From Meghimatium bilineatum (Eukaryota > Mollusca > Gastropoda > Stylommatophora > Philomycidae), in NCBI GenBank assembly GCA_034231615.1, contig CM067312.1, positions 2,025,001-2,089,000 of the forward strand: a DNA stretch of 64,000 bases, written 5' to 3'. A program made the position numbers and the translations under genes. Positions within the stretch are counted from its first letter, which is position 1. Each line of letters begins with the position of its first letter. This document shows positions 4,576 through 62,808 of the stretch, in pieces. The notes beneath the pieces were generated by a model. That model was given only the letters and a program-made list of their open reading frames with translations, ran no database searches and was not told where the DNA came from.

Positions 4576-4582
4576 GAACTAA

Positions 4583-35720: not shown

Positions 35721-35797
35721 GAACTTTCGTCCATCTCTTCCATCTGTATCATAATTTCCGATTTGTAGCACACATAATAATGTAAATATAATCGTAT

Positions 35798-37343: not shown

Positions 37344-38139
37344 ATGATAAAAAGAGGAAATCTCCTTTAATGCCTAGTATATTTTGTTTATTTATTATAT
37401 ACGTATTCCATTGAGAGCAAATCAGGTAGCCATAGTATAAGGAGCATCTGTAAGAAGGATTGGAACTATAATTTTAAAATAACCATGATTAGTGAAACTA
37501 GTTTGGGTTTTCTGTGATACAGCTAACATATATGTGTTTGCCCAGAGACATTCACATGAAATTCCGCCACATGAAAATCCGGAAAACAGACTGAAATGAA
37601 CCGTGACATATTATGAATAATAGAGTTGATGGCGGATAATTGCTAGGTATCCTAGTACAATAACTAATGCTATATCCCATGTGATGTTTATTGGAAGTTG
37701 ATTTTAAACTCTGTGTCCAGAGCCAATAACAATCTCGAGAAAAGCCAAAAAAAGGTCATTCAAGAAGGATGTTTTTGCAAGTAACTAATGAATATTCTAT
37801 TGCCGATGGAGACTAAAGATGCCACTCACAGAAATTGTTTCTAGGAATTTCTGAGCTGTTCTTTTGCTTTCGTTCTCAAACTCATACCGGGTGTACGATT
37901 TCCAGAACGATGTATTTCAGGGAATGTAAATGCGTTATGTCGCTGTTGTATTTGCTTAACTGCCAGTTATATCCGACTACAATGATATTTCTGCACTCAA
38001 GGTAGATATGAAGTAGTTTCTTCATAAACCCGTACACCTTCAGGGTCGTATGTGTACCACATTAAATACTTCAGCACACCGAGTCCTCCAGAAATTTATA
38101 TGCTTAGCGATGCGGGTGAGTGAGGAAAAATCTTGATAT
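37344..38139. other. no gene seen
   Basis: Non-repetitive sequence between two arrays. I translated it mentally in several frames and found no family motif. It may contain an undetected exon, but I cannot support one. Confidence 0.35.
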
Positions 38140-38238
38140 GTCCATTCCTTGATGTTGTTTGTCCATTCCTTGATGTTGTTTGTCCATACCTTGATGCTGT
38201 TTGTCCATGCCTTGATGCTGTTTGTCCATACCTTTATT
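38140..38238. repeat. 21-bp tandem repeat, about 4.7 copies
   Basis: Units of TCCATTCCTTGATGTTGTTTG, with CATACC and GATGCT variants in the later copies. Confidence 0.92.
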
Positions 38239-38320
38239 TGCCCCCATCCTTGTTTTCCAGAATAGTCCCTATATCATATAAATTAACATGATCAAATTTA
38301 AACACATACCAGTGATTGTA

Positions 38321-41300
38321 CAAGTAGCATGAACTAAGTTAGTTAGTTAGTCGTTGGATCAGCGTCATTGTACTTCAGACAAGTAGCATGAACTATGTTA
38401 GTTAGTTAGTCGTTGGATCATCGTCATTGTACTCCAGACAAGTAGCATGAACTATGTTAGTTAGTTAGTCGTTGGATCATCGTCATTGCACTCCAGACAA
38501 GTAGCATGAACTAAGTTAGTTAGTTAGTCGTTGGATCATCGTCATTGTACTTCAGACAAGTAGCATGAACTATGTTAGTTAGTTAGTCGTTGGATCATCG
38601 TCATTGTACTCCAGACAAGTAGCATGAACTATGTTAGTTAGTTAGTCGTTGGATCATCGTCATTGCACTCCAGACAAGTAGCATGAACTAAGTTAGTTAG
38701 TTAGTCGTTGGATCATCGTCATTGTACTCCAGACAAGTAGCATGAACTATGTTAGTTAGTTAGTCGTTGGATTATCGTCATTGTACTCCAGACAAGTAGC
38801 ATGAACTATGTTAGTTAGTTAGTCGTTGAATCATCGTCATTGTACTCCAGACAAGTAGCATGAACTATGTTAGTTAGTTAGTCGTTGGATCATCGTCATT
38901 GCACTCCAGACAAGTAGCATGAACTATGTTAGTTAGTTAGTCGTTGGATCATCGTCATTGTACTTCAGACAAGTAGCATGAACTATGTTAGTTAGTTAGT
39001 CGTTGGATCATCGTCATTGTACTTCAGACAAGTAGCATGAACTATGTTAGTTAGTTAGTTGGATCATCGTCATTGTACTCCAGACAAGTAGCATGAACTA
39101 TGTTAGTTAGTTAGTCGTTGGATCATCGTCATTGTACTTCAGACAAGTAGCATGAAGTATGTTAGTTAGTTAGTTGGATCGTCGTCATTGTACTTCAGAC
39201 AAGTAGCATGAACTATGTTAGTTAGTTAGTCGTTGGATCATCGTCATTGTACTTCAGACAAGTAGCATGAACTATGTTAGTTAGTTAGTTGGATCGTCGT
39301 CATTGTACTCCAGACAAGTAGCATGAACTATGTTAGTTAGTTAGTCGTTGGATCATCGTCATTGTACTTCAGACAAGTAGCATGAACTATGTTAGTTAGT
39401 TAGTCGTTGGATCATCGTCATTGTACTTCAGACAAGTAGCATGAACTATGTTAGTTAGTTAGTCGTTGGATCATCGTCATTGTACTTCAGACAAGTAGCA
39501 TGAACTATGTTAGTTAGTTAGTTGGATCGTCGTCATTGTACTCCAGACAAGTAGCATGAACTATGTTAGTTAGTTAGTCGTTGGATCATCGTCATTGTAC
39601 TCCAGACAAGTAGCATGAACTATGTTAGTTAGTTAGTCGTTGGATCATCGTCATTGTACTTCAGACAAGTAGCATGAACTATGTTAGTTAGTTAGTTGGA
39701 TCATCGTCATTGTACTCCAGACAAGTAGCATGAACTATGTTAGTTAGTTAGTTGGATCATCGTCATTGTACTCCAGACAAGTAGCATGAACTATGTTAGT
39801 TAGTTAGTCGTTGGATCATCGTCATTGTACTTCAGACAAGTAGCATGAACTATGTTAGTTAGTTAGTTGGATCATCGTCATTGTACTTCAGACAAGTAGC
39901 ATGAACTATGTTAGTTAGTTAGTCGTTGGATCATCGTCATTGTACTCTAGACAAGTAGCATGAACTATGTTAGTTAGTCGCTGGATCATCGTCATTGTAC
40001 TTCAGACAAGTAGCATGAACTATGTTAGTTAGTTAGTTGGATCATCGTCATTGTACTTCAGACAAGTAGCATGAACTATGTTAGTTAGTTAGTTGGATCA
40101 TCGTCATTGTACTTCAGACAAGTAGCATGAACTATGTTAGTTAGTTAGTTGGATCATCGTCATTGTACTTCAGACAAGTAGCATGAACTATGTTAGTTAG
40201 TTAGTTGGATCATCGTCATTGTACTTCAGACAAGTAGCATGAACTATGTTAGTTAGTTAGTCGTTGGATCATCGTCATTGTACTTCAGACAAGTAGCATG
40301 AACTATGTTAGTTAGTTAGTTGGATCATCGTCATTGTACTTCAGACAAGTAGCATGAACTATGTTAGTTAGTTAGTCGTTGGATCATCGTCATTGTACTT
40401 CAGACAAGTAGCATGAACTATGTTAGTTAGTTAGTCGTTGGATCATCGTCATTGTACTCCAGACAAGCAGCATGAACTATGTTAGTTAGTTAGTCGTTGG
40501 ATCATCGTCATTGTACTTCAGACAAGTAGCATGAACTATGTTAGTTAGTTAGTCGTTGGATCATCGTCATTGTACTTCAGACAAGTAGCATGAACTATGT
40601 TAGTTAGTTAGTCGTTGGATCATCGTCATTGTACTTCAGACAAGTAGCATGAACTATGTTAGTTAGTCGTTGGATCATCGTCATTGTACTTCAGACAAGT
40701 AGCATGAACTATGTTAGTTAGTTAGTCGTTGGATCATCGTCATTGTACTTCAGACAAGTAGCATGAACTATGTTAGTTAGTCGTTGGATCATCGTCATTG
40801 TACTTCAGACAAGTAGCATGAACTATGTTAGTTATTTAGTCGTTGAATCATCGTCATTGTACTTCAGACAAGTAGCATGAACTATGTTAGTTAGTCGTTG
40901 GATCATCGTCATTGTACTCCAGACACGTAGCATGAATTATGTTAGTTAGTTAGTCGTTGGATCATCGTCATTGTACTCCAGACAAGTAGCATGAACTATG
41001 TTAGTTAGTTAGTCGTTGGATCATCGTCATTGTACTCCAGACAAGTAGCATGAACTATGTTAGTTTGTTAGTCGTTGGATCATCGTCATTGTACTTCAGA
41101 CACGTAGCATGAACTATGTTAGTTAGTCGTTGGATCATCGTCATTGTACTTCAGACAAGTAGCATGAACTATGTTAGTTAGTCGTTGGATCATCGTCATT
41201 GTACTTCAGACAAGTAGCATGAACTATGTTAGTTAGTTAGTCGTTGGATCATCGTCATTGTACTTCAGACAAGTAGCATGAACTATGTTAGTTAGTTAGT

Positions 41301-44300
41301 CGTTGGATCATCGTCATTGTACTCCAGACAAGTAGCATGAACTATGTTAGTTAGTTAGTCGTTGGATCATCGTCATTGTACTTCAGACAAGTAGCATGAA
41401 CTATGTTAGTTAGTTAGTTGTTGGATCATCGTCATTGTACTCCAGACAAGTAGCATGAACTATGTTAGTTAGTCGTTGGATCATCGTCATTGTACTTCAG
41501 ACAAGTAGCATGAACTATGTTAGTTAGTTAGTTGTTGGATCATCGTCATTGTACTCCAGACAAGTAGCATGAACTATGTTAGTTAGTCGTTGGATCATCG
41601 TCATTGTACTTCAGACAAGTAGCATGAACTATGTTAGTTAGTTAGTTGTTGGATCATCGTCATTGTACTCCAGACAAGTAGCATGAACTATGTTAGTTAG
41701 TCGTTGGATCATCGTCATTGTACTTCAGACAAGTAGCATGAACTATGTTAGTTAGTCGTTGGATCATCGTCATTGTACTTCAGACAAGTAGCATGAACTA
41801 TGTTAGTTAGTTAGTTGTTGGATCATCGTCATTGTACTCCAGACAAGTAGCATGAACTATGTTAGTTAGTCGTTGGATCATCGTCATTGTACTCCAGACA
41901 AGTAGCATGAACTATGTTAGTTAGTTAGTCGTTGGATCATCGTCATTGTACCTCAGACAAGTAGCATGAACTATGTTAGTTAGTTAGTCGTTGGATCATC
42001 GTCATTGTACTCCAGACAAGTAGCATGAACTATGTTAGTTAGTTAGTCGTTGGATCATCGTCATTGTACTTCAGACAAGTAGCATGAACTATGTTAGTTG
42101 GTTAGTTGGATCATCGTCATTGTACTCCAGACAAGTAGCATGAACTATGTTAGTTAGTTAGTTGGATCATCGTCATTGTACTCCAGACAAGTAGCATGAA
42201 CTTTGTTAGTTAGTTAGTCGTTGGATCATCGTCATTGTACTTCAGACAAGTAGCATGAACTATGTTAGTTAGTCGTTGGATCATCGTCATTGTACTTCAG
42301 ACAAGTAGCATGAACTATGTTAGTTAGTTAGTCGTTGAATCATCGTCATTGTACTTCAGACAAGTAGCATGAACTATGTTAGTTAGTCGTTGGATCATCG
42401 TCATTGTACTCCAGACACGTAGCATGAATTATGTTAGTTAGTTAGTCGTTGGATCATCGTCATTGTACTCCAGACAAGTAGCATGAACTATGTTAGTTAG
42501 TTAGTCGTTGGATCATCGTCATTGTACTCCAGACAAGTAGCATGAACTATGTTAGTTTGTTAGTCGTTGGATCATCGTCATTGTACTTCAGACACGTAGC
42601 ATGAACTATGTTAGTTAGTCGTTGGATCATCGTCATTGTACTTCAGACAAGTAGCATGAACTATGTTAGTTAGTCGTTGGATCATCGTCATTGTACTTCA
42701 GACAAGTAGCATGAACTATGTTAGTTAGTTAGTCGTTGGATCATCGTCATTGTACTTCAGACAAGTAGCATGAACTATGTTAGTTAGTTAGTCGTTGGAT
42801 CATCGTCATTGTACTCCAGACAAGTAGCATGAACTATGTTAGTTAGTTAGTCGTTGGATCATCGTCATTGTACTTCAGACAAGTAGCATGAACTATGTTA
42901 GTTAGTTAGTTGTTGGATCATCGTCATTGTACTCCAGACAAGTAGCATGAACTATGTTAGTTAGTCGTTGGATCATCGTCATTGTACTTCAGACAAGTAG
43001 CATGAACTATGTTAGTTAGTTAGTTGTTGGATCATCGTCATTGTACTCCAGACAAGTAGCATGAACTATGTTAGTTAGTCGTTGGATCATCGTCATTGTA
43101 CTTCAGACAAGTAGCATGAACTATGTTAGTTAGTTAGTTGTTGGATCATCGTCATTGTACTCCAGACAAGTAGCATGAACTATGTTAGTTAGTCGTTGGA
43201 TCATCGTCATTGTACTTCAGACAAGTAGCATGAACTATGTTAGTTAGTCGTTGGATCATCGTCATTGTACTTCAGACAAGTAGCATGAACTATGTTAGTT
43301 AGTTAGTTGTTGGATCATCGTCATTGTACTCCAGACAAGTAGCATGAACTATGTTAGTTAGTCGTTGGATCATCGTCATTGTACTCCAGACAAGTAGCAT
43401 GAACTATGTTAGTTAGTTAGTCGTTGGATCATCGTCATTGTACCTCAGACAAGTAGCATGAACTATGTTAGTTAGTTAGTCGTTGGATCATCGTCATTGT
43501 ACTCCAGACAAGTAGCATGAACTATGTTAGTTAGTTAGTCGTTGGATCATCGTCATTGTACTTCAGACAAGTAGCATGAACTATGTTAGTTGGTTAGTTG
43601 GATCATCGTCATTGTACTCCAGACAAGTAGCATGAACTATGTTAGTTAGTTAGTTGGATCATCGTCATTGTACTCCAGACAAGTAGCATGAACTTTGTTA
43701 GTTAGTTAGTCGTTGGATCATCGTCATTGTACTTCAGACAAGTAGCATGAACTATGTTAGTTAGTTAGTTGGATCATCGTCATTCTACTCCAGACAGGTA
43801 GCATGAACTATCTTAGTTAGTTAGTCGTTGGATCATCGTCATTGTACTCCAGACAGGTAGCATGAACTATGTTAGTTAGTTAGTCGTTGGATCATCGTCA
43901 TTGTACTCCAGACAAGTAGCATGAACTATGTTAGTTAGTTAGTCGCTGGATCATCGTCATTGTACTTCAGACAAGTAGCATGAACTATGTTAGTTAGTTA
44001 GTTGGATCATCGTCATTGTACTTCAGACAAGTAGCATGAACTATGTTAGTTAGTTAGTTGGATCATCGTCATTGTACTTCAGACAAGTAGCATGAACTAT
44101 GTTAGTTAGTTAGTTGGATCATCGTCATTGTACTTCAGACAAGTAGCATGAACTATGTTAGTTAGTTAGTTGGATCATCGTCATTGTACTTCAGACAAGT
44201 AGCATGAACTATGTTAGTTAGTTAGTCGTTGGATCATCGTCATTGTACTTCAGACAAGTAGCATGAACTATGTTAGTTAGTTAGTTGGATCATCGTCATT

Positions 44301-47300
44301 GTACTTCAGACAAGTAGCATGAACTATGTTAGTTAGTTAGTCGTTGGATCATCGTCATTGTACTTCAGACAAGTAGCATGAACTATGTTAGTTAGTTAGT
44401 CGTTGGATCATCGTCATTGTACTCCAGACAAATAGCATGAACTATGTTAGTTAGTCGTTGGATCATCGTCATTGTACTTCAGACAAGTAGCATGAACTAT
44501 GTTAGTTAGTTAGTCGTTGGATCATCGTCATTGTACTCCAGACAAGTAGCATGAACTATGTTAGTTAGTTAGTCGTTGGATCATCGTCATTGTACTTCAG
44601 ACAAGTAGCATGAACTATGTTAGTTAGTTAGTCGTTGGATCATCGTCATTGTACTTCAGACAAGTAGCATGAACTATGTTAGTTAGTCGTTGGATCATCG
44701 TCATTGTACTTCAGACAAGTAGCATGAACTATGTTAGTTAGTTAGTCGTTGGATCATCGTCATTGTACTTCAGACAAGTAGCATGAACTATGTTAGTTAG
44801 TTAGTCGTTGGATCATCGTCATTGTACTCCAGACAAGTAGCATGTACTATGTTAGTTAGTCGTTGGATCATCGTCATTGTACTTCAGACAAGTAGCATGA
44901 ACTATGTTAGTTAGTTAGTTGTTGGATCATCGTCATTGTACTCCAGACAAGTAGCATGAACTATGTTAGTTTGTCGTTGGATCATCGTCATTGTACTCCA
45001 GACAAGTAGCATGAACTATGTTAGTTAGTTAGTCGTTGGATCATCGTCATTGTACTTCAGACAAGTAGCATGAACTATGTTAGTTAGTTAGTCGTTGGAT
45101 CATCGTCATTGTACTCCAGACAAGTAGCATGAACTATGTTAGTTAGTTAGTCGTTGGATCATCGTCATTGTACTTCAGACAAGTAGCATGAACTATGTTA
45201 GTTAGTTAGTTGGATCATCGTCATTGTACTCCAGACAAGTAGCATGAACTTTGTTAGTTAGTTAGTTGGATCATCGTCATTGTACTCCAGACAAGTAGCA
45301 TGAACTATGTTAGTTAGTTAGTTGGATCATCGTCATTGTACTTCAGACAAGTAGCATGAACTATGTTAGTTAGTTAGTCGTTGGATCATCGTCATTGTAC
45401 TCCAGACAAGTAGCATGAACTATGTTAGTTAGTTAGTCGTTGGATCATCGTCATTGTACTCCAGACAAGTAGCATGAACTATGTTAGTTAGTTAGTCGTT
45501 GGATCATCGTCATTGTACTTCAGACAAGTAGCATGAACTATGTTAGTTAGTTAGTTGGATCATCGTCATTGTACTTCAGACAAGTAGCATGAACTATGTT
45601 AGTTAGTTGGATCATCGTCATTGTACTTCAGACAAGTAGCATGAACTATGTTAGTTAGTTAGTCGTTGGATCATCGTCATTGTACTTCAGACAAGTAGCA
45701 TGAACTATGTTAGTTAGTTAGTCGTTGGATCATCGTCATTGTACTTCAGACAAGTAGCATGAACTATGTTAGTTAGTTAGTTGGATCATCGTCATTGTAC
45801 TTCAGACAAGTAGCATGAACTATGTTAGTTAGTTAGTCGTTGGATCATCGTCATTGTACTTCAGACAAGTAGCATGAACTATGTTAGTTAGTTAGTCGTT
45901 GGATTATCGTCATTGTACTCCAGACAAATAGCATGAACTATGTTAGTTAGTCGTTGGATCATCGTCATTGTACTTCAGACAAGTAGCATGAACTATGTTA
46001 GTTAGTTAGTCGTTGGATCATCGTCATTGTACTCCAGACAAGTAGCATGAACTATGTTAGTTAGTTAGTCGTTGGATCATCGTCATTGTACTTCAGACAA
46101 GTAGCATGAACTATATTAGTTAGTTAGTCGTTGGATCATCGTCATTGTACTTCAGACAAGTAGCATGAACTATGTTAGTTAGTTAGTCGTTGGATCATCG
46201 TCATTGTACTTCAGACAAGTAGCATGAACAATGTTAGTTAGTCGTTGGATCATCGTCATTGTACTTCAGACAAGTAGCATGAACTATGTTAGTTAGTTAG
46301 TCGTTGGATCATCGTCATTGTACTTCAGACAAGTAGCATGAACTATGTTAGTTAGTTAGTCGTTGGATCATCGTCATTGTACTCCAGACAAGTAGCATGA
46401 ACTATGTTAGTTAGTTAGTCGTTGGATCATCGTCATTGTACTCCAGACAAGTAGCATGAACTATGTTAGTTAGTTAGTCGTTGGATCATCGTCATTGTAC
46501 TTCAGACAAGTAGCATGAACTATGTTAGTTAGTTAGTCGTTGGATCATCGTCATTGTACTTCAGACAAGTAGCATGAACTATGTTAGTTAGTCGTTGGAT
46601 CATCGTCATTGTACTTCAGACAAGTAGCATGAACTATGTTAGTTAGTTAGTCGTTGGATCATCGTCATTGTACTTCAGACAAGTAGCATGAACTATGTTA
46701 GTTAGTTAGTCGTTGGATCATCGTCATTGTACTTCAGACAAGTAGCATGAACTATGTTAGTTAGTTAGTCGTTGGATCATCGTCATTGTACTCCAGACAA
46801 GTAGCATGAACTATGTTAGTTAGTTAGTCGTTGGATCATCGTCATTGTACTTCAGACAAGTAGCATGAACTATGTTAGTTAGTTAGTTGTTGGATCATCG
46901 TCATTGTACTCCAGACAAGTAGCATGAACTATGTTAGTTAGTCGTTGGATCATCGTCATTGTACTCCAGACAAGTAGCATGAACTATGTTAGTTAGTTAG
47001 TTGTTGGATCATCGTCATTGTACTCCAGACAAGTAGCATAAACTATGTTAGTTAGTCGTTGGATCATCGTCATTGTACTTCAGACAAGTAGCATGAACTA
47101 TGTTAGTTAGTCGTTAGATCATCGTCATTGTACTTCAGACAAGTAGCATGAACTATGTTAGTTAGTTAGTTGTTGGATCATCGTCATTGTACTCCAGACA
47201 AGTAGCATGAACTATGTTAGTTAGTCGTTGGATCATCGTCATTGTACTCCAGACACGTAGCATGAACTATGTTAGTTAGTTAGTTGTTGGATCATCGTCA

Positions 47301-50300
47301 TTGTACTCCAGACAAGTAGCATGAACTATGTTAGTTAGTCGTTGGATCATCGTCATTGTACTCCAGACAAGTAGCATGAACTATGTTAGTTAGTTAGTCG
47401 TTGGATCATCGTCATTGTACTTCAGACAAGTAGCATGAACTATGTTAGTTAGTTAGTCGTTGGATCATCGTCATTGTACTTCAGACAAGTAGCATGAACT
47501 ATGTTAGTTAGTCGTTGGATCATCGTCATTGTACTTCAGACAAGTAGCATGAACTATGTTAGTTAGTTAGTCGTTGGATCATCGTCATTGTACTCCAGAC
47601 AAGTAGCATGAACTATGTTAGTTAGTTAGTCGTTGGATCTTCGTCATTGTACTTCAGACAAGTAGCATGAACTATGTTAGTTAGTTAGTTAGTCGTTGGA
47701 TCATCGCCATTGTACTTCAGACAAGTAGCATGAACTATGTTAGTTAGTTAGTTGTTGGATCATCGTCATTGTACTTCAGACAAGTAGCATGAACTATTTT
47801 AGTTAGTTAGTCGTTGGATCATCGTCATTGTACTTCAGACAAGTAGCATGAACTATGTTAGTTAGTTAGTCGTTGGATCATCGTCATTGTACTCCAGACA
47901 AGTAGCATGAACTATGTTAGTTAGTTAGTCGTTGGATCATCGTCATTGTACTTCAGACAAGTAGCATGAACTATGTTAGTTAGTTAGTTGGATCATCGTC
48001 ATTGTACTCCAGACAAGTAGCATGAACTATGTTAGTTAGTTAGTTGGATCATCGTCATTGTACTCCAGACAAGTAGCATGAACTATGTTAGTTAGTTATT
48101 CGTTGGATCATCGTCATTGTACTTCAGACAAGTAGCATGAACTATGTTAGTTAGTTAGTTGGATCATCGTCATTGTACTTGAGACAAGTAGCATGAACTA
48201 TGTTAGTTAGTTAGTCGTTGGATCATCGTCATTGTACTCCAGACAAGTAGCATGAACTATGTTAGTTAGTTAGTCGTTGGATCATCGTCATTATACTCCA
48301 GACAAGTAGCATGAACTATGTTAGTTAGTTAGTCGCTGGATCATCGTCATTGTACTCCAGACAAGTAGCATGAACTATGTTAGTTAGTTAGTCGCTGGAT
48401 CATCGTCATTGTACTCCAGACAAGTAGCATGAACTATGTTAGTTATTTAGTTGGATCATCGTCATTGTACTTCAGACAAGTAGCATGAACTATGTTAGTT
48501 AGTTAGTTGGATCATCGTCATTGTACTTCAGACAAGTAGCATGAACTATGTTAGTTAGTTAGTTGGATCATCGTCATTGTACTTCAGACAAGTAGCATGA
48601 ACTATGTTAGTTAGTTAGTCGTTGGATCATCGTCATTGTACTTCAGACAAGTAGCATGAACTATGTTAGTTAGTTAGTTGGATCATCGTCATTGTACTTC
48701 AGACAAGTAGCATGAACTATGTTAGTTAGTTAGTCGTTGGATCATCGTCATTGTACTTCAGACAAGTAGCATGAACTATGTTAGTTAGTTAGTCGTTGGA
48801 TCATCGTCATTGTACTCCAGACAAATAGCATGAACTATGTTAGTTAGTCGTTGGATCATCGTCATTGTACTTCAGACAAGTAGCATGAACTATGTTAGTT
48901 AGTTAGTCGTTGGATCATCGTCATTGTACTCCAGACAAGTAGCATGAACTATGTTAGTTAGTTAGTCGTTGGATCATCGTCATTGTACTTCAGACAAGTA
49001 GCATGAACTATATTAGTTAGTTAGTCGTTGGATCATCGTCATTGTACTTCAGACAAGTAGCATGAACTATGTTAGTTAGTTAGTCGTTGGATCATCGTCA
49101 TTGTACTTCAGACAAGTAGCATGAACTATGTTAGTTAGTCGTTGGATCATCGTCATTGTACTTCAGACAAGTAGCATGAACTATGTTAGTTAGTTAGTCG
49201 TTGGATCATCGTCATTGTACTTCAGACAAGTAGCATGAACTATGTTAGTTAGTTAGTCGTTGGATCATCGTCATTGTACTTCAGACAAGTAGCATGAACT
49301 ATGTTAGTTAGTTAGTCGTTGGATCATCGTCATTGTACTCCAGACAAGTAGCATGAACTATGTTAGTTAGTTAGTCGTTGGATCATCGTCATTGTACTCC
49401 AGACAAGTAGCATGAACTATGTTAGTTAGTTAGTCGTTGGATCATCGTCATTGTACTTCAGACAAGTAGCATGAACTATGTTAGTTAGTTAGTCGTTGGA
49501 TCATCGTCATTGTACTTCAGACAAGTAGCATGAACTATGTTAGTTAGTCGTTGGATCATCGTCATTGTACTTCAGACAAGTAGCATGAACTATGTTAGTT
49601 AGTTAGTCGTTGGATCATCGTCATTGTACTTCAGACAAGTAGCATGAACTATGTTAGTTAGTTAGTCGTTGGATCATCGTCATTGTACTTCAGACAAGTA
49701 GCATGAACTATGTTAGTTAGTTAGTCGTTGGATCATCGTCATTGTACTCCAGACAAGTAGCATGAACTATGTTAGTTAGTTAGTCGTTGGATCATCGTCA
49801 TTGTACTTCAGACAAGTAGCATGAACTATGTTAGTTAGTCGTTGGATCATCGTCATTGTACTCCAGACAAGTAGCATGAACTATGTTAGTTAGTTAGTTG
49901 TTGGATCATCGTCATTGTACTCCAGACAAGTAGCATGAACTATGTTAGTTAGTCGTTGGATCATCGTCATTGTACTCCAGACAAGTAGCATGAACTATGT
50001 TAGTTAGTCGTTGGATCATCGTCATTGTACTCCAGACAAGTAGCATGAACTATGTTAGTTAGTTAGTCGTTGGATCATCGTCATTGTACTTCAGACAAGT
50101 AGCATGAACTATGTTAGTTAGTTAGTCGTTGGATCATCGTCATTGTACTTCAGACAAGTAGCATGAACTATGTTAGTTAGTCGTTGGATCATCGTCATTG
50201 TACTTCAGACAAGTAGCATGAACTATGTTAGTTAGTTAGTCGTTGGATCATCGTCATTGTACTTCAGACAAGTAGCATGAACTATGTTAGTTAGTCGTTG

Positions 50301-53300
50301 GATCATCGTCATTGTACTTCAGACAAGTAGCATGAACTATGTTAGTTAGTTAGTCGTTGGATCATCGTCATTGTACTCCAGACAAGTAGCATGAACTATG
50401 TTAGTTAGTTAGTCGTTGGATCATCGTCATTGTACTTCAGACAAGTAGCATGAACTATGTTAGTTAGTTAGTTGTTGGATCATCGTCATTGTACTCCAGA
50501 CAAGTAGCATGAACTATGTTAGTTAGTTAGTTGTTGGATCATCGTCATTGTACTTCAGACGAGTAGCATGAACTATGTTAGTTAGTCGTTGGATCATCGT
50601 CATTGTACTCCAGACAAGTAGCATGAACTATGTTAGTTAGTTAGTCGTTGGATCATCGTCATTGTACTTCAGACAAGTAGCATGAACTATGTTAGTTAGT
50701 TAGTCGTTGGATCATCGTCATTGTACTTCAGACAAGTAGCATGAACTATGTTAGTTAGTTAGTCGTTGGATCATCGTCATTGTACTCCAGACAAGTAGCA
50801 TGAACTATGTTAGTTAGTTAGTCGTTGGATCATCGTCATTGTACTCCAGACAGGTAGCATGAACTATGTTAGTTAGTTAGTTGTTGGATCATCGTCATTG
50901 TACTTCAGACAAGTAGCATGAACTATGTTAGTTAGTTAGTCGTTGGATCATCGTCATTGTACTTCAGACAAGTAGCATGAACTATGTTAGTTAGTTAGTT
51001 GTTGGATCATCGTCATTGTACTTCAGACAAGTAGCATGAACTATTTTAGTTAGTTAGTCGTTGGATCATCGTCATTGTACTTCAGACAAGTAGCATGAAC
51101 TATGTTAGTTAGTTAGTCGTTGGATCATCGTCATTGTACTTCAGACAAGTAGCATGAACTATGTTAGTTAGTTAGTCGTTGGATCATCGTCATTGTACTT
51201 CAGACAAGTAGCATGAACTATGTTAGTTAGTTAGTCGTTGGATCATCGTCATTGTACTCCAGACAAGTAGCATGAACTATGTTAGTTAGTTAGTCGTTGG
51301 ATCATCGTCATTGTACTTCAGACAAGTAGCATGAACTATGTTAGTTAGTTAGTTGGATCATCGTCATTGTACTCCAGACAAGTAGCATGAACTATGTTAG
51401 CTAGTTAGTTGGATCATCGTCATTGTACTCCAGACAAGTAGCATGAACTATGTTAGTTAGTTAGTCGTTGGATCATCGTCATTGTACTTCAGACAAGTAG
51501 CATGAATTATGTTAGTTAGTTAGTCGTTGGATCATCGTCATTGTACTTCAGACAAGTAGCATGAACTATGTTAGTTAGTTAGTCGTTGGATCATCGTCAT
51601 TGTACTCCAGACAAGTAGCATGAACTATGTTAGTTAGTTAGTCGTTGGATCATCGTCATTGTACTTCAGACAAGTAGCATGAACTATGTTAGTTAGTTAG
51701 TCGTTGGATCATCGTCATTGTACTTCAGACAAGTAGCATGAACTATGTTAGTTAGTTAGTTGGATCATCGTCATTGTACTTCAGACAAGTAGCATGAACT
51801 ATGTTAGTTAGTCGTTGGATCATCGTCATTGTACTTCAGACAAGTAGCATGAACTATGTTAGTTAGTTAGTTGGATCATCGTCATTGTACTTCAGACAAG
51901 TAGCATGAACTATGTTAGTTAGTTAGTTGGATCATCGTCATTGTACTTCAGACAAGTAGCATGAACTATGTTAGTTAGTTAGTTGGATCATCGTCATTGT
52001 ACTTCAGACAAGTAGCATGAACTATGTCAGTTAGTTTGTTGGATCATCGTCATTGTACTTCAGACAAGTAGCATGAACTATGTTAGTTAGTTAGTCGTTG
52101 GATCATCGTCATTGTACTCCAGACAAATAGCATGAACTATGTTAGTTAGTCGTTGGATCATCGTCATTGTACTTCAGACAAGTAGCATGAACTATGTTAG
52201 TTAGTTAGTCGTTGGATCATCGTCATTGTACTCCAGACAAGTAGCATGAACTATGTTAGTTAGTTAGTCGTTGGATCATCGTCATTGTACTTCAGACAAG
52301 TAGCATGAACTATATTAGTTAGTTAGTCGTTGGATCATCGTCATTGTACTTCAGACAAGTAGCATGAACTATGTTAGTTAGTCGTTGGATCATCGTCATT
52401 GTACTTCAGACAAGTAGCATGAACTATGTTAGTTAGTTAGTCGTTGGATCATCGTCATTGTACTCCAGACAAGTAGCATGAACTATGTTAGTTAGTTAGT
52501 CGTTGGATCATCGTCATTGTACTTCAGACAAGTAGCATGAACTATGTTAGTTAGTTAGTCGTTGGATCATCGTCATTGTACTCCAGACAAGTAGCATGAA
52601 CTATGTTAGTTAGTTAGTTGTTGGATCATCGTCATTGTACTTCAGACAAGTAGCATGAACTATGTTAGTTAGTTAGTCGTTGGATCATCGTCATTGTACT
52701 TCAGACAAGTAGCATGAACTATGTTAGTTAGTCGTTGGATCATCGTCATTGTACTTCAGACAAGTAGCATGAACTATGTTAGTTAGTTAGTCGTTGGATC
52801 ATCGTCATTGTACTTCAGACAAGTAGCATGAACTATGTTAGTTAGTCGTTGGATCATCGTCATTGTACTTCAGACAAGTAGCATGAACTATGTTAGTTAG
52901 TTAGTCGTTGGATCATCGTCATTGTACTTCAGACAAGTAGCATGAACTATGTTAGTTAGTTAGTCGTTGGATCATCGTCATTGTACTTCAGACAAGTAGC
53001 ATGAACTATGTTAGTTAGTTAGTCGTTGGATCATCGTCATTGTACTCCAGACAAGTAGCATGAACTATGTTAGTTAGTTAGTCGTTGGATCATCGTCATT
53101 GTACTTCAGACAAGTAGCATGAACTATGTTAGTTAGTTAGTTGTTGGATCATCGTCATTGTACTCCAGACAAGTAGCATGAACTATGTTAGTTAGTTGTT
53201 GGATCATCGTCATTGTACTCCAGACAAGTAGCATGAACTATGTTAGTTAGTTAGTCGTTGGATCATCGTCATTGTACTTCAGACAAGTAGCATGAACTAT

Positions 53301-56300
53301 GTTAGTTAGTTGTTGGATCATCGTCATTGTACTTCAGACAAGTAGCATGAACTATGTTAGTTAGTCGTTGGATCATCGTCATTGTACTTCAGACAAGTAG
53401 CATGAACTATGTTAGTTAGTCGTTGGATCATCGTCATTGTACTTCAGACAAGTAGCATGAACTATGTTAGTTAGTTAGTCGTTGGATCATCGTCATTGTA
53501 CTTCAGACAAGTAGCATGAACTATGTTAGTTAGTTAGTCGTTGGATCATCGTCATTGTACTCCAGACAAGTAGCATGAACTATGTTAGTTAGTCGTTGGA
53601 TCATCGTCATTGTACTCCAGACAAGTAGCATGAACTATGTTAGTTAGTTAGTTGTTGGATCATCGTCATTGTACTCCAGACAAGTAGCATGAACTATGTT
53701 AGTTAGTCGTTGGATCATCGTCATTGTACTTCAGAGAAGTAGCATGAACTATGTTAGTTAGTCGTTGGATCATCGTCATTGTACTTCAGACAAGTAGCAT
53801 GAACTGTGTTAGTTAGTCGTTGGATCATCGTCATTGTACTTCAGACAAGTAGCATGAACTATGTTAGTTAGTTAGTCGTTGGATCATCGTCATTGTACTT
53901 CAGACAAGTAGCATGAACTATGTTAGTTAGTCGTTGGATCATCGTCATTGTACTTCAGACAAGTAGCATGAACTATGTTAGTTAGTTAGTCGTTGGATCA
54001 TCGTCATTGTACTCCAGACAAGTAGCATGAACTATGTTAGTTAGTTAGTTAGTCGTTGGATCATCGTCATTGTACTCCAGACAAGTAGCATGAACTATGT
54101 TAGTTAGTTAGTCGTTGGATCATCGTCATTGTACTTCAGACAAGTAGCATGAACTATGTTAGTTAGTTAGTTGTTGGATCATCGTCATTGTACTCCAGAC
54201 AAGTAGCATGAACTATGTTAGTTAGTTAGTTGTTGGATCATCGTCATTGTACTCCAGACAAGTAGCATGAACTATGTTAGTTAGTCGTTGGATCATCGTC
54301 ATTGTACTTCAGACAAGTAGCATGAACTATGTTAGTTAGTTGTTGGATCATCGTCATTGTACTCCAGACAAGTAGCATGAACTATGTTAGTTAGTTAGTC
54401 GTTGGATCATCGTCATTGTACTTCAGACAAGTAGCATGAACTATGTTAGTTAGTTGTTGGATCATCGTCATTGTACTTCAGACAAGTAGCATGAACTATG
54501 TTAGTTAGTCGTTGGATCATCGTCATTGTACTTCAGACAAGTAGCATGAACTATGTTAGTTAGTCGTTGGATCATCGTCATTGTACTTCAGACAAGTAGC
54601 ATGAACTATGTTAGTTAGTTAGTCGTTGGATCATCGTCATTGTACTTCAGACAAGTAGCATGAACTATGTTAGTTAGTTAGTCGTTGGATCATCGTCATT
54701 GTACTCCAGACAAGTAGCATGAACTATGTTAGTTAGTTAGTCGTTGGATCATCGTCATTGTACTTCAGACAAGTAGCATGAACTATGTTAGTTAGTTAGT
54801 TGTTGGATCATCGTCATTGTACTCCAGACAAGTAGCATGAACTATGTTAGTTAGTCGTTGGATCATCGTCATTGTACTCCAGACAAGTAGCATGAACTAT
54901 GTTAGTTAGTTAGTTGTTGGATCATCGTCATTGTACTCCAGACAAGTAGCATGAACTATGTTAGTTAGTCGTTGGATCATCGTCATTGTACTTCAGACAA
55001 GTAGCATGAACTATGTTAGTTAGTCGTTGGATCATCGTCATTGTACTTCAGACAAGTAGCATGAACTATGTTAGTTAGTTAGTTGTTGGATCATCGTCAT
55101 TGTACTCCAGACAAGTAGCATGAACTATGTTAGTTAGTCGTTGGATCATCGTCATTGTACTCCAGACAAGTAGCATGAACTATGTTAGTTAGTTGTTGGA
55201 TCATCGTCATTGTACTCCAGACAAGTAGCATGAACTATGTTAGTTAGTTAGTCGTTGGATCATCGTCATTGTACTTCAGACAAGTAGCATGAACTATGTT
55301 AGTTAGTTGTTGGATCATCGTCATTGTACTTCAGACAAGTAGCATGAACTATGTTAGTTAGTCGTTGGATCATCGTCATTGTACTTCAGACAAGTAGCAT
55401 GAACTATGTTAGTTAGTTAGTCGTTGGATCATCGTCATTGTACTTCAGACAAGTAGCATGAACTATGTTAGTTAGTTAGTCGTTGGATCATCGTCATTGT
55501 ACTTCAGACAAGTAGCATGAACTATGTTAGTTAGTTAGTCGTTGGATCATCGTCATTGTACTCCAGACAAGTAGCATGAACTATGTTAGTTAGTTAGTCG
55601 TTGGATCATCGTCATTGTACTTCAGACAAGTAGCATGAACTATGTTAGTTAGTTAGTTGTTGGATCATCGTCATTGTACTCCAGACAAGTAGCATGAACT
55701 ATGTTAGTTAGTCGTTGGATCATCGTCATTGTACTCCAGACAAGTAGCATGAACTATGTTAGTTAGTTAGTTGTTGGATCATCGTCATTGTACTCCAGAC
55801 AAGTAGCATGAACTATGTTAGTTAGTCGTTGGATCATCGTCATTGTACTTCAGACAAGTAGCATGAACTATGTTAGTTAGTCGTTGGATCATCGTCATTG
55901 TACTTCAGACAAGTAGCATGAACTATGTTAGTTAGTTAGTTGTTGGATCATCGTCATTGTACTCCAGACAAGTAGCATGAACTATGTTAGTTAGTCGTTG
56001 GATCATCGTCATTGTACTCCAGACAAGTAGCATGAACTATGTTAGTTAGTCGTTGGATCATCGTCATTGTACTTCAGACAAGTAGCATGAACTATGTTAG
56101 TTAGTTAGTCGTTGGATCATCGTCATTGTACTTCAGACAAGTAGCATGAACTATGTTAGTTAGTCGTTGGATCATCGTCATTGTACTTCAGACAAGTAGC
56201 ATGAACTATGTTAGTTAGTTAGTCGTTGGATCATCGTCATTGTACTTCAGACAAGTAGCATGGACTATGTTAGTTAGTCGTTGGATCATCGTCATTGTAC

Positions 56301-59300
56301 TTCAGACAAGTAGCATGAACTATGTTAGTTAGTTAGTCGTTGGATCATCGTCATTGTACTCCAGACAAGTAGCATGAACTATGTTAGTTAGTTAGTTAGT
56401 CGTTGGATCATCGTCATTGTACTCCAGACAAGTAGCATGAACTATGTTAGTTAGTTAGTCGTTGGATCATCGTCATTGTACTTCAGACAAGTAGCATGAA
56501 CTATGTTAGTTAGTTAGTTGTTGGATCATCGTCATTGTACTCCAGACAAGTAGCATGAACTATGTTAGTTAGTTAGTTGTTGGATCATCGTCATTGTACT
56601 CCAGACAAGTAGCATGAACTATGTTAGTTAGTCGTTGGATCATCGTCATTGTACTTCAGACAAGTAGCATGAACTATGTTAGTTAGTCGTTGGATCATCG
56701 TCATTGTACTCCAGACAAGTAGCATGAACTATGTTAGTTAGTTAGTCGTTGGATCATCGTCATTGTACTTCAGACAAGTAGCATGAACTATGTTAGTTAG
56801 TTAGTCGTTGGATCATCGTCATTGTACTTCAGACAAGTAGCATGAACTATGTTAGTTAGTTAGTCGTTGGATCATCGTCATTGTACTTCAGACAAGTAGC
56901 ATGAACTATTTTAGTTAGTTAGTCGTTGGATCATCGTCATTGTACTTCAGACAAGTAGCATGAACTATGTTAGTTAGTTAGTCGTTGGATCATCGTCATT
57001 GTACTTCAGACAAGTAGCATGAACTATGTTAGTTAGTTAGTCGTTGGATCATCGTCATTGTACTTCAGACAAGTAGCATGAACTATGTTAGTTAGTTAGT
57101 CGTTGGATCATCGTCAATGTACTTAAGACAAGTAGCATGAACTATGTTAGTTAGTTAGTCGTTGGATCATCGTCATTGTATTCCAGACAAGTAGCATGAA
57201 CTATGTTAGTTAGTTAGTTAGTCGTTGGATCATCGTCATTGTACTCCAGACAAGTAGCATGAACTATGTTAGTTAGTTAGTCGTTGGATCATCGTCATTG
57301 TACTTCAGACAAGTAGCATGAACTATGTTAGTTAGTTAGTTGTTGGATCATCGTCATTGTACTCCAGACAAGTAGCATGAACTATGTTAGTTAGTTAGTT
57401 GTTGGATCATCGTCATTGTACTCCAGACAAGTAGCATGAACTATGTTAGTTAGTCGTTGGATCATCGTCATTGTACTTCAGACAAGTAGCATGAACTATG
57501 TTAGTTAGTCGTTGGATCATCGTCATTGTACTCCAGACAAGTAGCATGAACTATGTTAGTTAGTTAGTCGTTGGATCATCGTCATTGTACTTCAGACAAG
57601 TAGCATGAACTATGTTAGTTAGTTAGTCGTTGGATCATCGTCATTGTACTTCAGACAAGTAGCATGAACTATTTTAGTTAGTTAGTCGTTGGATCATCGT
57701 CATTGTACTTCAGACAAGTAGCATGAACTATGTTAGTTAGTTAGTCGTTGGATCATCGTCATTGTACTTCAGACAAGTAGCATGAACTATGTTAGTTAGT
57801 TAGTCGTTGGATCATCGTCATTGTACTTCAGACAAGTAGCATGAACTATGTTAGTTAGTTAGTCGTTGGATCATCGTCAATGTACTTAAGACAAGTAGCA
57901 TGAACTATGTTAGTTAGTTAGTCGTTGGATCATCGTCATTGTATTCCAGACAAGTAGCATGAACTATGTTAGTTAGTTAGTCGTTGGATCATCGTCATTG
58001 TACTCCAGACAAGTAGCATGAACTATGTTAGATAGTTAGTCGTTGGATCATCGTCATTGTACTTCAGACAAGTAGCATGAACTATGTTAGTTAGTTAGTC
58101 GTTGGATCATCGTCATTGTACTCCAGACAAGTAGCATGAACTATGTTAGTTAGTTAGTCGTTGGATCATCGTCATTGTACTCCAGACAAGTAGCATGAAC
58201 TATGTTAGTTAGTTAGTCGTTGGATCATCGTCATTGTACTTCAGACAAGTAGCATGAACTATGTTAGTTAGTTAGTCGTTGGATCATCGTCATTGTACTT
58301 CAGACAAGTAGCATGAACTATGTTAGTTAGTCGTTGGATCATCGTCATTGTACTTCAGACAAGTAGCATGAACTATGTTAGTTAGTTAGTCGTTGGATCA
58401 TCGTCATTGTACTTCAGACAAGTAGCATGAACTATGTTAGTTAGTTAGTCGTTGGATCATCGTCATTGTACTTCAGACAAGTAGCATGAACTATGTTAGT
58501 TAGTTAGTCGTTGGATCATCGTCATTGTACTCCAGACAAGTAGCATGAACTATGTTAGTTAGTTAGTCGTTGGATCATCGTCATTGTACTTCAGACAAGT
58601 AGCATGAACTATGTTAGTTAGTTAGTTGTTGGATCATCGTCATTGTACTCCAGACAAGTAGCATGAACTATGTTAGTTAGTCGTTGGATCATCGTCATTG
58701 TACTCCAGACAAGTAGCATGAACTATGTTAGTTAGTTAGTTGTTGGACCATCGTCATTGTACTCCAGACAAGTAGCATGAACTATGTTAGTTAGTCGTTG
58801 GATCATCGTCATTGTACTTCAGACAAGTAGCATGAACTATGTTAGTTAGTCGTTGGATCATCGTCATTGTACTTCAGACAAGTAGCATGAACTATGTTAG
58901 TTAGTTAGTCGTTGGATCATCGTCATTGTACTTCAGACAAGTAGCATGAACTATGTTAGTTAGTCGTTGGATCATCGTCATTGTACTTCAGACAAGTAGC
59001 ATGAACTATGTTAGTTAGTTAGTCGTTGGATCATCGTCATTGTACTTCAGACAAGTAGCATGAACTATGTTAGTTAGTTAGTCGTTGGATCATCGTCATT
59101 GTACTTCAGACAAGTAGCATGAACTATGTTAGTTAGTTAGTCGTTGGATCATCGTCATTGTACTCCAGACAAGTAGCATGAACTATGTTAGTTAGTTAGT
59201 CGTTGGATCATCGTCATTGTACTTCAGACAAGTAGCATGAACTATGTTAGTTAGTTAGTTGTTGGATCATCGTCATTGTACTCCAGACAAGTAGCATGAA

Positions 59301-61566
59301 CTATGTTAGTTAGTCGTTGGATCATCGTCATTGTACTCCAGACAAGTAGCATGAACTATGTTAGTTAGTTAGTTGTTGGATCATCGTCATTGTACTCCAG
59401 ACAAGTAGCATGAACTATGTTAGTTAGTCGTTGGATCATCGTCATTGTACTTCAGACAAGTAGCATGAACTATGTTAGTTAGTCGTTGGATCATCGTCAT
59501 TGTACTTCAGACAAGTAGCATGAACTATGTTAGTTAGTTAGTCGTTGGATCATCGTCATTGTACTTCAGACAAGTAGCATGAACTATGTTAGTTAGTTAG
59601 TCGTTGGATCATCGTCATTGTACTTCAGACAAGTAGCATGAACTATGTTAGTTAGTTAGTCGTTGGATCATCGTCATTGTACTCCAGACAAGTAGCATGA
59701 ACTATGTTAGTTAGTTAGTCGTTGGATCATCGTCATTGTACTTCAGACAAGTAGCATGAACTATGTTAGTTAGTTAGTTGTTGGATCATCGTCATTGTAC
59801 TCCAGACAAGTAGCATGAACTATGTTAGTTAGTCGTTGGATCATCGTCATTGTACTTCAGACAAGTAGCATGAACTATGTTAGTTAGTTAGTCGTTGGAT
59901 CATCGTCATTGTACTTCAGACAAGTAGCATGGACTATGTTAGTTAGTCGTTGGATCATCGTCATTGTACTTCAGACAAGTAGCATGAACTATGTTAGTTA
60001 GTTAGTCGTTGGATCATCGTCATTGTACTCCAGACAAGTAGCATGAACTATGTTAGTTAGTTAGTTAGTCGTTGGATCATCGTCATTGTACTCCAGACAA
60101 GTAGCATGAACTATGTTAGTTCGTTAGTCGTTGGATCATCGTCATTGTACTTCAGACAAGTAGCATGAACTATGTTAGTTCGTTAGTCGTTGGATCATCG
60201 TCATTGTACTTCAGACAAGTAGCATGAACTATGTTAGTTAGTTAGTCGTTGGATCATCGTCATTGTACTTCAGACAAGTAGCATGAACTATGTTAGTTAG
60301 TTAGTCGTTGGATCATCGTCATTGTACTTCAGACAAGTAGCATGAACTATGTTAGTTAGTTAGTCGTTGGATGATCGTCATTGTACTCCAGACAAGTAGC
60401 ATGAACTAAGTTAGTTAGTCGTTGGATCATTGTCATTGTACTCCAGACAAGTAGCATGAACTATGTTAGTTAGTTAGTTGTTGGATCATCGTCATTGTAC
60501 TTCAGACAAGTAGCATGAACTATGTTAGTTAGTTAGTCGTTGGATCATCGTCATTGTACTCCAGACAAGTAGCATGAACTATGTTAGTTAGTCGTTGGAT
60601 CATCGTCATTGTACTTCAGACAAGTAGCATGAACTATGTTAGTTAGTTAGTCGTTGGATCATCGTCATTGTACTTCAGACAAGTAGCATGAACTATGTTA
60701 GTTAGTTAGTCGTTGGATCATCGTCATTGTACTCCAGACAAGTAGCATGAACTAAGTTAGTTAGTCGTTGGATCATTGTCATTGTACTCCAGACAAGTAG
60801 CATGAACTATGTTAGTTAGTTAGTTGTTGGATCATCGTCATTGTACTTCAGACAAGTAGCATGAACTATGTTAGTTAGTTAGTCGTTGGATCATCGTCAT
60901 TGTACTTCAGACAAGTAGCATGAACTATGTTAGTTAGTTAGTCGTTGGATCATCGTCATTGTACTTCAGACAAGTAGCATGAACTATTTTAGTTAGTTAG
61001 TCGTTGGATCATCGTCATTGTACTTCAGACAAGTAGCATGAACTATGTTAGTTAGTTAGTCGTTGGATCATCGTCATTGTACTTCAGACAAGTAGCATGA
61101 ACTATGTTAGTTAGTTAGTCGTTGGATCATCGTCATTGTACTTCAGACAAGTAGCATGAACTATGTTAGTTAGTTAGTCGTTGGATCATCGTCAATGTAC
61201 TTAAGACAAGTAGCATGAACTATGTTAGTTAGTTAGTCGTTGGATCATCGTCATTGTACTCCAGACAAGTAGCATGAACTATGTTAGTTAGTTAGTCGTT
61301 GGATCATCGTCATTGTACTCCAGACAAGTAGCATGAACTATGTTAGTTAGTTAGTCGTTGGATCATCGTCATTGTACTCCAGACAAGTAGCATGAACTAT
61401 GTTAGTTAGTTAGTCGTTGGATCATCGTCATTGTACTTCAGACAAGTAGCATGAACTATGTTAGTTAGTTAGTCGTTGGATCATCGTCATTGTACTCCAG
61501 ACAAGTAGCATGAACTATGTTAGTTAGTTAGTCGTTGGATCATCGTCATTGTACTCCAGACAAGTC
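38321..61566. repeat. 23-kb satellite derived from a LINE 3' junction, about 400 copies
   Basis: Head-to-tail monomers, mostly 59 or 55 bp (rarely 51 or 63). Each consists of three parts: a 34-bp part beginning TCGTTGGATCATCGTC and ending CAGACAAGT; a 13-bp part AGCATGAACTATG; and a TTAG run of two, three or four copies. The 34-bp part is the antisense of the last codons (TCLEYNDDDPTT) of the LINE fragment at 61520-62808, and the TTAG run is that LINE's 3' tail. The 13-bp part is not LINE sequence and is present once at the left border (38326-38338). Variants include TACTTCAG or TACTCCAG, TCGTTGG or TTGTTGG or TTGG, CAAATAGC and CTATATTAG. Several marker variants repeat at constant offsets, showing block duplications. 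The array has no open frame of interest. It lies in what would be an intron downstream of the last visible EGF exon. Confidence 0.97.
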
Positions 61567-62808
61567 CATAGATGCTCGGGTCTTTCCTTGAGTGTATCCG
61601 CCATTACACGCTGACTGACAGTCCCAGTACGTTGTTGATTGACCATCATTCCTTTTCGCCCACGAAAACTTTCCTTTCTAGCGACACCACATTTCAAAAC
61701 AAGGTTCTTTATTTTAATCATGGAACAAGAGTCATCGTCACTTGTACAGTCATTTGTTCGTTCGTTTTCCTGTAGGGCATTCAAAATGTCTGCCCGATCC
61801 ATCGCTCCACTAACAGCCGTAGTAGCAGCGTGGGCGGCCAACCTATCTGCCCTTTCATTACCCCGGACTCCCGCGTATCCCGGCACAAAAATAAAAGTCA
61901 CTGTACGCACATTATTCACTGCATCCAGCCACTGTTCTCGAACATACCCCGTCTGAACTTTCACAATCATGTTCATGGAGTCACTGAGTATACAGGTATG
62001 CTCGCAGACGGTCTGTGAGAAGACCCATTGCAAAGCTTTGGTCACCGCCAGAATCTCCATTGTCAAGCTGCTTGTTGTCGTCTGAGCGAATGCACCACTT
62101 TCCTCTGATAGTCTCCCCCCACCTTTGAGCCATGAAAGCCCAGGAACTCCTGATGTGTCTCTCAACCGACCCATCTGTATATATAATTATATCACCTTCC
62201 CTGGAATTCTCACTGATCAGAGCGAGCACCTCCGACTCGACTACTGTCGGACACCATTCCCTGCACTCTCTATTGAGTGTTATTAATCCCTCGAAGGCTG
62301 TTTGGTAATCCGAGGGTGCCAGACTCCATTCAGCACCAGGTAGTACATCCTCCAATCTGCAGACACTCTGTATAGCGTCCTCTGCGCGCCCCATCCACGA
62401 CTTTCCTCTCTTTAGTCGACTGCCTTTCACTTTGATCATTTCTGGGTGTAGAGGGTGCTCTTTATCAGAGGTGATGTTTAGGTAGTCCGCGCCCTGCACA
62501 TTTGTATTCTTTGCTCCACAGTTGGGCAATCAAGTAGGTATCGCATAGCCGGAGCGTACGTATCTCTCGTGCAGCTCAAAATAATTCGCATTGCCGCATT
62601 CTGGATTCTATCCAATCTTTCTGTTTGAGTTTGACTCAGTGTCAGAATTGCCAGTGCGTGCCCTACCACCGCCACCACCAATCCATGATACAGCAGACTT
62701 CGGTCCAACATGACCGCCCAAGTACTTCATTGTGATGGTTCTCTCGAGGACATCCCCTCTCAAAGTAACCGATGGCATGGACGTCTTCACTATGTGATTG
62801 ATTAGGGA
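61520..62808 (-). pseudogene. LINE fragment, RT thumb to RNase H and tail (family A)
   Basis: Read on the - strand it starts at about 62808 with thumb sequence (HIVKTSMPSVTLRGDVLERT, ITMKYLG). A jump to RSLLYHGLVVAVVGHALAI follows, where about 40 residues present in the related copy at 3461-4575 are missing. Next come LSQTQTERLDRIQNAAMRI, a linker, ECREWCPTVVES, IIYTDGSV (RNase H first aspartate), ESGAFAQTTTSSLTMEILAV (glutamate), CILSDSMNM (aspartate), FVPGYAGVRGNERADRLA, and LWTCLEYNDDDPTTN at the end. At least three frameshifts break it. The stop (61524-61526) lies inside the TTAG tail at 61520-61531. The C-x-x-C of the related copy (CPVC) is lost here (CLEY), and the satellite monomers carry the CLEY version, so this copy or a very close relative is the source of the array. 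No target-site duplication is recognisable. Confidence 0.9.

Follow-up and report, generated by a model that had tools for sequence, protein, structure and literature searches.

Tandem arrays derived from transposable elements have been traced to several kinds of event. In the model of Haber and Louis, minisatellites are born between short direct repeats of 5-10 bp, and minisatellites derived from Alu have been described by Jurka and Gentles (in the parts consulted of PMC3389668 and PMC6947457); for the maize arrays CRM1TR and CRM4TR, the authors report, in the portion consulted, that the short repeats needed for a one-step origin were not found (PMC3648361). Here we analyse a 64,000-nucleotide stretch of Meghimatium bilineatum DNA (C15:2,025,001-2,089,000 in an assembly of 1.61 Gb and 32 contigs; hereafter the window), which contains a tandem array of 59-bp units in register with a long interspersed nuclear element (LINE), and which has a diverged second copy on the same contig. 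An earlier note on this DNA proposed that the array descends from the 3' junction of that LINE, and this genealogy is supported, more strongly than was stated there.

Tandem Repeats Finder (TRF) places the array at 38320-61565 with a period of 59 and 402.1 copies, in agreement with the extent given previously except for the start, which lies one base to the left of 38321. Segmentation yields 402 units, with 401 spacings of 59 bp (262), 55 bp (92), 56 bp (41), 63 bp (5) and 52 bp (1). On the plus strand a unit reads ACAAGT, AGCATGAACTATG, three TTAG repeats and then TCGTTGGATCATCGTCATTGTACT(T/C)CAG, amounting to 6 + 13 + 12 + 28 bp, the last being LINE sequence. When ACAAGT is assigned to the LINE the same unit divides into 34 + 12 + 13 bp, which confirms the composition proposed earlier (antisense C-terminal coding end of the LINE, TTAG tail and 13 bp of flank). 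The array, its borders and the LINE copies of the window are the following.

38139..38319, no strand: left host flank, a 21-bp repeat (38139-38234, TRF) and then DNA ending ...AGTGATTGT; the border 23-mer occurs once in the assembly.
38320..38325, plus strand: left-hand ACAAGT, one of the two copies of the 6-bp direct repeat bounding the unit.
38326..38338, plus strand: 13-bp target-site sequence, AGCATGAACTAAG at this position and AGCATGAACTATG in most units; in the second copy, AGCATGAACTATGTTA lies beyond the 5' end of the LINE.
38320..61565, plus strand: 59-bp tandem array, 402 units (TRF and segmentation).
38438..38909, plus strand: span with three units carrying the LINE-ancestral TGCAC (starts 38438, 38615 and 38851), mutational intermediates found by segmentation.
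61501..61559, plus strand: last unit, which runs on into the reading frame of the LINE and comprises target-site sequence, tail and LINE 3' end.
61560..61565, plus strand: right copy of ACAAGT, within the LINE coding end.
61520..62808, minus strand: LINE copy R, with TTAG tail, C-terminal coding end and RNase H; its 5' part and right target-site duplication (TSD) are lost, and it has an internal deletion of ~100 bp.
15845..16691, minus strand: second LINE copy of the same family, 67.9% identical to R, with an independent 3' junction; RNase_H is also found in this copy (given as 15849).

The repeat ACAAGT lies at both borders of the array (38320-38325 and 61560-61565) while the sequences outside it differ, as expected of a minisatellite bounded by a direct repeat of 5-10 bp. 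The 23-mer across the left border, GATTGTACAAGTAGCATGAACTA, has one exact match in the assembly and three matches at three mismatches (reversed controls, 2 + 2). At the right border, an open reading frame (ORF) on the minus strand of R (61524-62186) contains the Pfam domain RNase_H (E 7.6e-9), enters the last unit of the array and stops within the CTAA tail, so that the LINE is indeed in register at the right edge. The statement in the earlier note that the founder and both borders are still in place applies to the founder LINE itself, which is present; the window LINE is without its 5' part and right TSD, and a complete insertion is found only in the second copy.

Of 7858 first-look candidates for the LINE family, 39 copies were scored, and 28 of the 39 were fetched and aligned. 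The motifs of the unit end, TGCACTC and CTCCGGA, are present in 27 and 26 of these 28 copies, respectively, and the (TTAG)3 tail is intact in 22 and shortened or altered in 6. Their 30-bp flanks all differ, and the 13-bp target-site sequence is absent from the 60 bp before the tail in 28 of 28. With 3' end and tail shared, flanks all different and the 13-bp sequence in none, the boundary between LINE and host DNA is exact. R differs from the family majority at 49 of 1175 positions and the 28 copies at 1.0-2.4%, figures that say little on relative age given that the copies were chosen as best matches. Reverse transcriptase was identified as RVT_1 in copies L002 and L005. TSDs were scanned in 27 family copies with L002 as the query; 12 of these end within two bases of L002's own end and are uninformative, and of the 15 informative truncated copies 7 share 9-15 bp between their flanks (shuffle p <=0.01) and 8 do not. 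Reverse transcriptase and RNase H domains, TSDs, variable 5' truncation and a constant 3' end (28 copies) mark the family as LINEs mobilised by target-primed reverse transcription.

The alignment of the monomer to the second LINE copy of the window (15845-16691), proposed as a check in the earlier note, bears out the relationship over 29 bp with 2 mismatches (score 48; maximum of 1000 shuffles, 28). Without its TTAG run the monomer matches that copy more weakly (score 22, equalled in 5 of 1000 shuffles). Family copies nearer to R give a much stronger match. Chance similarity is nonetheless rejected by the shuffle scores, by the family alignment and by the comparison of R with R', its counterpart in the second copy; the monomer is homologous to a transposable element beyond chance.

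Megablast pieces of at least 300 bp join C15:2.016-2.097 Mb to 2.200-2.290 Mb, mostly in the same order, broken up by long gaps and numerous insertions and with some pieces inverted. This second copy of the region (L044-L056) lies ~186 kb away, is 86-99% identical piece by piece and may be a segmental duplication or an unpurged haplotype. It carries its own array of the same monomer, of 150 units by segmentation and 151.1 copies by TRF, after which R' follows in register, is interrupted by ~1.3 kb of other DNA and then resumes. About 1 kb of the interrupting DNA (C15:2258295-2259330) is 99% identical to C15:2004652-2005686 and may be a recent repeat insertion. R' terminates in ...GTAGTCCTG, followed by 8 more bases and then by AGCATGAACTATGTTA and host DNA. 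Because AGCATGAACTATGTTA follows the LINE 5' end here, the 13-bp flank is a TSD. It had been called non-LINE flank, which holds in that none of the 28 family copies has it in the 60 bp before the tail, and which is to be amended in that it is the LINE's own target-site duplication. Beside the window LINE there is no TSD (left against right flank, score 16, equalled in 191 of 500 shuffles), nor is there one past the 63-bp array that adjoins R (428 of 500 shuffles as high), since the 5' part of the LINE has been deleted. Over 754 columns of the family majority, R and R', 707 are identical, 6 show derived states shared by R and R', 20 are changed in R only, 19 in R' only and 2 differ in all three. 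The six shared derived states indicate that a single insertion preceded the split of the two copies and that most divergence came afterwards. No allele without the array was found in this assembly; the single-copy ancestral state is defined piecewise by the LINE family majority, the left flank and the right TSD.

Across the whole assembly, a 28-bp monomer pattern with up to 2 mismatches gave 551 forward matches and 1 reverse match. The forward matches divide into 402 in the window array and 149 in the second array (C15:2,248,951-2,257,594), which was located by an exact variant of the pattern; both arrays have the LINE in register, and the lone reverse match is a different insertion of the LINE family on C3, a stub with its own TSD. 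The earlier note would have abandoned its genealogy had the same monomers turned up at many loci free of the LINE, which is not so in this assembly, where every forward match lies in one of two LINE-linked arrays. The term satellite used there does not apply, however: the 59-bp array is not dispersed, and is a local minisatellite with two loci on one contig, not a classical satellite with large homogeneous arrays at many loci. The same counts bear on the idea of a satellite older than the LINE, into which the LINE inserted or from which it captured a unit. Other family copies do sit in tandem arrays (by eye, in the flanks of L008, L021, L033, L038 and L039, and at ~3470-4578 of the window, between 30-bp repeats), but LINE coding sequence and tail are present in all 402 window units and in the units of the second array, and the confinement of the monomer to two arrays in register with a LINE contradicts this order of events here; we regard it as very improbable. 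Still less credible is that the array belongs to the mobile element, as a tandemly repeated 3' tail that moves with the LINE. LINE tails can be repetitive, and the length of (TTAG)n varies in this family, yet the 13-bp sequence precedes the tail in none of the 28 fetched copies. Outside the arrays, a 20-mer of the LINE 3' end has ~1,890 further exact copies (2283 minus 392), and an exact pattern for tandem 3' ends at unit lengths of 56-86 bp matched only the two C15 arrays and one locus on C25.

The direction of change, from LINE to monomer as earlier claimed, is readable in the units themselves. TGCACTCCGG is the sequence of the family majority and also of the R'-attached unit, which thus retains the ancestral LINE bases, whereas units 3, 6 and 10 from the left edge of the window array have TGCACTCCAG; TGCAC units in the window array are confined to these first 10 units. 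The unit ends of the window array comprise 240 TGTACTTCAG, 147 TGTACTCCAG and 12 other variants, and none ends in CGG. Rare unit types (found at most twice per array) make up 5 of the first 10 units in each array (hypergeometric P 0.012 and 0.002) and none of the last 10 in either.

Taken as a whole, we consider the following scenario probable. A LINE encoding reverse transcriptase and RNase H would have inserted, 3' end leftward, at ...ACAAGT|AGCATGAACTATG(TTA), creating a TSD of 13-16 bp as seen in the second copy. The stretch from the ACAAGT of the host flank to the ACAAGT of the LINE coding end would then have been duplicated head to tail through pairing of this 6-bp repeat, by slippage, unequal exchange or microhomology-mediated repair. 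In the earliest units a G-to-A change (CCGG to CCAG) would have been followed by a C-to-T change (TGCAC to TGTAC), with a later C-to-T change giving CTTCAG, an order read from the intermediates; and unequal exchange together with block duplication, of which the blocks are observed, may have expanded the arrays to 402 and ~150 units. Between 60 bp of flank and 60 bp of LINE end, no direct repeat is longer than ACAAGT, and random breakpoints share at least 6 bp with P 0.0022 (0.0074 in another sample).

Several observations weigh against this scenario. At 28 other LINE junctions such repeats reach 4-8 bp; ACAAGT is thus unexceptional, available but not special. For three other arrays of the window, whose units occur once each in the second copy, the bounding exact repeats in that copy are only 3-4 bp long. 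The three TGCAC units seem to go back to a single local duplication and so count as one observation, and back mutation could have produced them; the unit of R itself has the derived bases, so that homogenisation is required; and in both arrays it is the left edge, not the right, that is enriched in rare units. The first duplication is, moreover, a step that we infer, and a heavily truncated LINE inserted into the TSD would yield the same product, as loci on C25 and C3 illustrate.

12-bp TSD and nine LINE 3' stubs, C25:93664700-93665240, minus strand: independent array (L057), which interrupts an otherwise open frame.
C3:5729940, minus strand: single LINE 3' stub of 56-59 bp with the TSD ATGAATTATG (L017).

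With the exact pattern for tandem 3' ends of the LINE, at unit lengths of 56-86 bp, 254 forward matches were obtained, 210 in the window and 44 in the second copy. Seven of the 8 reverse matches were placed on C25, and the sequence of that locus accounts for all 8. Each unit at C25, 62 bp long (58 in one case), consists of a ~50-bp stub of the same LINE and ACCTCGTTACAT. Ten copies of the latter separate the units and border the array on either side, and there is no LINE body. Joined to each other, the C25 flanks form an uninterrupted frame of 97 codons, which we take to resemble the end of another transposon's ORF. Since both the TSD and the LINE breakpoint differ from those of the window, this birth was independent, and the window is not the only place where such an array arose. 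At the C3 stub, the flank and the window target site agree at 17 of 19 bases, perhaps reflecting target preference.

These loci give substance to another origin of the first extra unit, namely a second LINE insertion in which a cDNA of ~40-46 nt, stopped early, was placed at the same nick in the TSD, giving TSD-stub-TSD-LINE, with the TSD and its neighbours then serving as the repeats for expansion. Such stubs exist, as nine units with 10 TSD copies and no LINE body on C25 and singly on C3, and the LINE breakpoints of the window, C25 and C3 are near one another, at 34, 38 and 36-39 bp inside the tail, respectively (by eye). The window array is bounded by ACAAGT, however, not by the TSD proper, and a stub would need a TSD of 19 bp, compared with 9-15 bp in the 7 measured copies. 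Nor is there any sign of a truncation hot spot: non-A bases follow CCAT at 29 sites and 17 of them are G, as mutation of the LINE would give (one position examined), and the RNA fold is ordinary (z -0.4). We judge this origin unlikely, and prefer duplication through the paired ACAAGT. Equally doubtful is the wider proposal that LINE 3' junctions are recurrent nurseries of tandem repeats, in which an almost complete early stop of reverse transcription leaves a ~50-bp stub between two TSDs, already a unit with direct repeats on either side, and re-insertion or slippage at the site thus created starts a minisatellite; if it were true, the window and C25 arrays would have arisen independently by the same element-driven route.

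Junction births are rare per LINE copy, set against the ~1,890 further 3' ends outside the arrays. Units of other lengths at LINE 3' ends with ancestral CATTGCACTCCGG ends were not found by exact patterns with gaps of 10-40 bp or 44-66 bp, and a further exact pattern for units at LINE 3' ends matched only the three intermediate units of the window. Exact patterns miss mutated copies (the 10-40 bp search with CATTGCACTCCGG missed C25, whose units read CACTG), and the number of junction births is accordingly a lower bound.

A base rate for array birth can be roughly gauged from three other arrays of the window.

1339-1705: 52-bp array, 7.1 copies, single-copy in the second copy.
14906-15190: 46-bp array, 6.2 copies, single-copy in the second copy.
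62809..63235, no strand: 63-bp array, 6.8 copies, directly adjoining LINE R where its 5' side is broken off; single-copy in the second copy.

These are births in one copy or contractions in the other, and array turnover is common here. Counting them as births, rough arithmetic (3 per 64 kb, ~1,900 junctions of 60 bp) gives ~5 expected births at junctions, so that the two found need no special LINE mechanism. The 63-bp unit stands as single-copy DNA ~21 kb beyond R' in the second copy. The local alignment of the 63-bp and 59-bp arrays scores 28, as high as none of 500 shuffles (maximum 27), and is driven by GAACT..ATGTTAGTT; kinship of the two was set aside, the 63-bp unit being single-copy host DNA in the second copy. 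Other repeats of the window also vary in number. At 3353-12107, 30-bp repeats enclose another LINE fragment of this family (~3470-4578), with ~250 repeat copies after it; the matching place in the second copy has ~6 repeat copies and no LINE fragment. A 64-bp array (26717-27560) has 13.2 copies compared with 7.0 in the second copy, and a 43-bp array (35795-37345) 36.1 compared with 18.1. There is no indication of a function for the 59-bp array, which is most likely a by-product of repeat turnover where arrays come and go.

Exact internal repeated blocks reach 24 and 27 units within the two arrays of the 59-bp monomer. The longest run of units common to both is 4, within the range of 20 shuffles (3-6), and unit order is therefore not conserved between them. 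They share 9 exact unit types, of 67 and 24, and no fixed difference between them was noticed. Unit diversity is 0.0192 and 0.0235 (pi; 401 and 150 units) with dxy in between at 0.0222, and the LINE columns differ at 41 of 754. These values are compatible with allelic or ectopic exchange between the arrays, although 59 bp gives little power and is too short for proof. If the assembly has set two haplotypes one after the other, so that the second copy is no segmental duplication, the array difference would be allelic. Homology in the same order across much of the fetched range speaks for this, as do arrays that share unit types with no net divergence beside a diverged LINE body, as exchanging alleles would. 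Divergence of ~5% with many insertions is high for alleles, and a control locus on C3 (one locus, partly repetitive) has no second copy near 95% identity; we hold the haplotype reading to be possible but lean away from it. A whole-genome duplication at 95% was likewise not seen at that single, partly repetitive control locus.

Satellites are usually assigned to transposons on grounds of similarity; in the present case the founder and its TSD can be read directly, together with ancestral and intermediate units, a second copy that differs in length and an independent replicate. Models of array birth by short-repeat slippage, nested insertion or unequal exchange become testable base by base at these loci, and array copy numbers in this genome change so quickly that a comparison is possible inside one contig.

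Among the described systems, as far as the consulted parts of the sources go, the minisatellites of Haber and Louis and of Jurka and Gentles share with this one a short bounding repeat (6 bp here), transposon-derived sequence and growth by unequal exchange; they differ in that the present unit spans the boundary of host target site and LINE 3' end, and that the founder survives here along with its TSD, intermediates and a second copy. Maize CRM1TR and CRM4TR are likewise tandem arrays derived from a retrotransposon, with gene conversion between units, but their source is a long terminal repeat (LTR) element, their units come from LTR and untranslated region, and their initiation is ascribed to successive deletions (PMC3648361). 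The Common Cetacean Satellite, chicken HinfI from CR1, PROsat and the HeT-A-derived 18HT also have monomers similar to LINE 3' ends or ORF2; for these the part consulted describes similarity of monomer and element, and leaves an in-register founder or a TSD within the monomer unmentioned (PMC9659126). Tandems of the P-element and hobo, formed by multiple insertion at a TSD, resemble C25 in having a TSD at the junction of units, but they are DNA transposons, whereas C25 consists of ~50-bp LINE 3' stubs for which slippage between TSDs and repeated insertion are equally likely (PMC9659126, PMC12628747). The portions consulted of PMC9659126, PMC6947457, PMC3648361, PMC3389668 and PMC12628747, which cover part of the field, contain no account of a monomer extending across a LINE 3' end and its TSD with the founder alongside. 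This kind of array is a known one, and what is unusual is that founder, TSD, intermediates and a replicate have been preserved.

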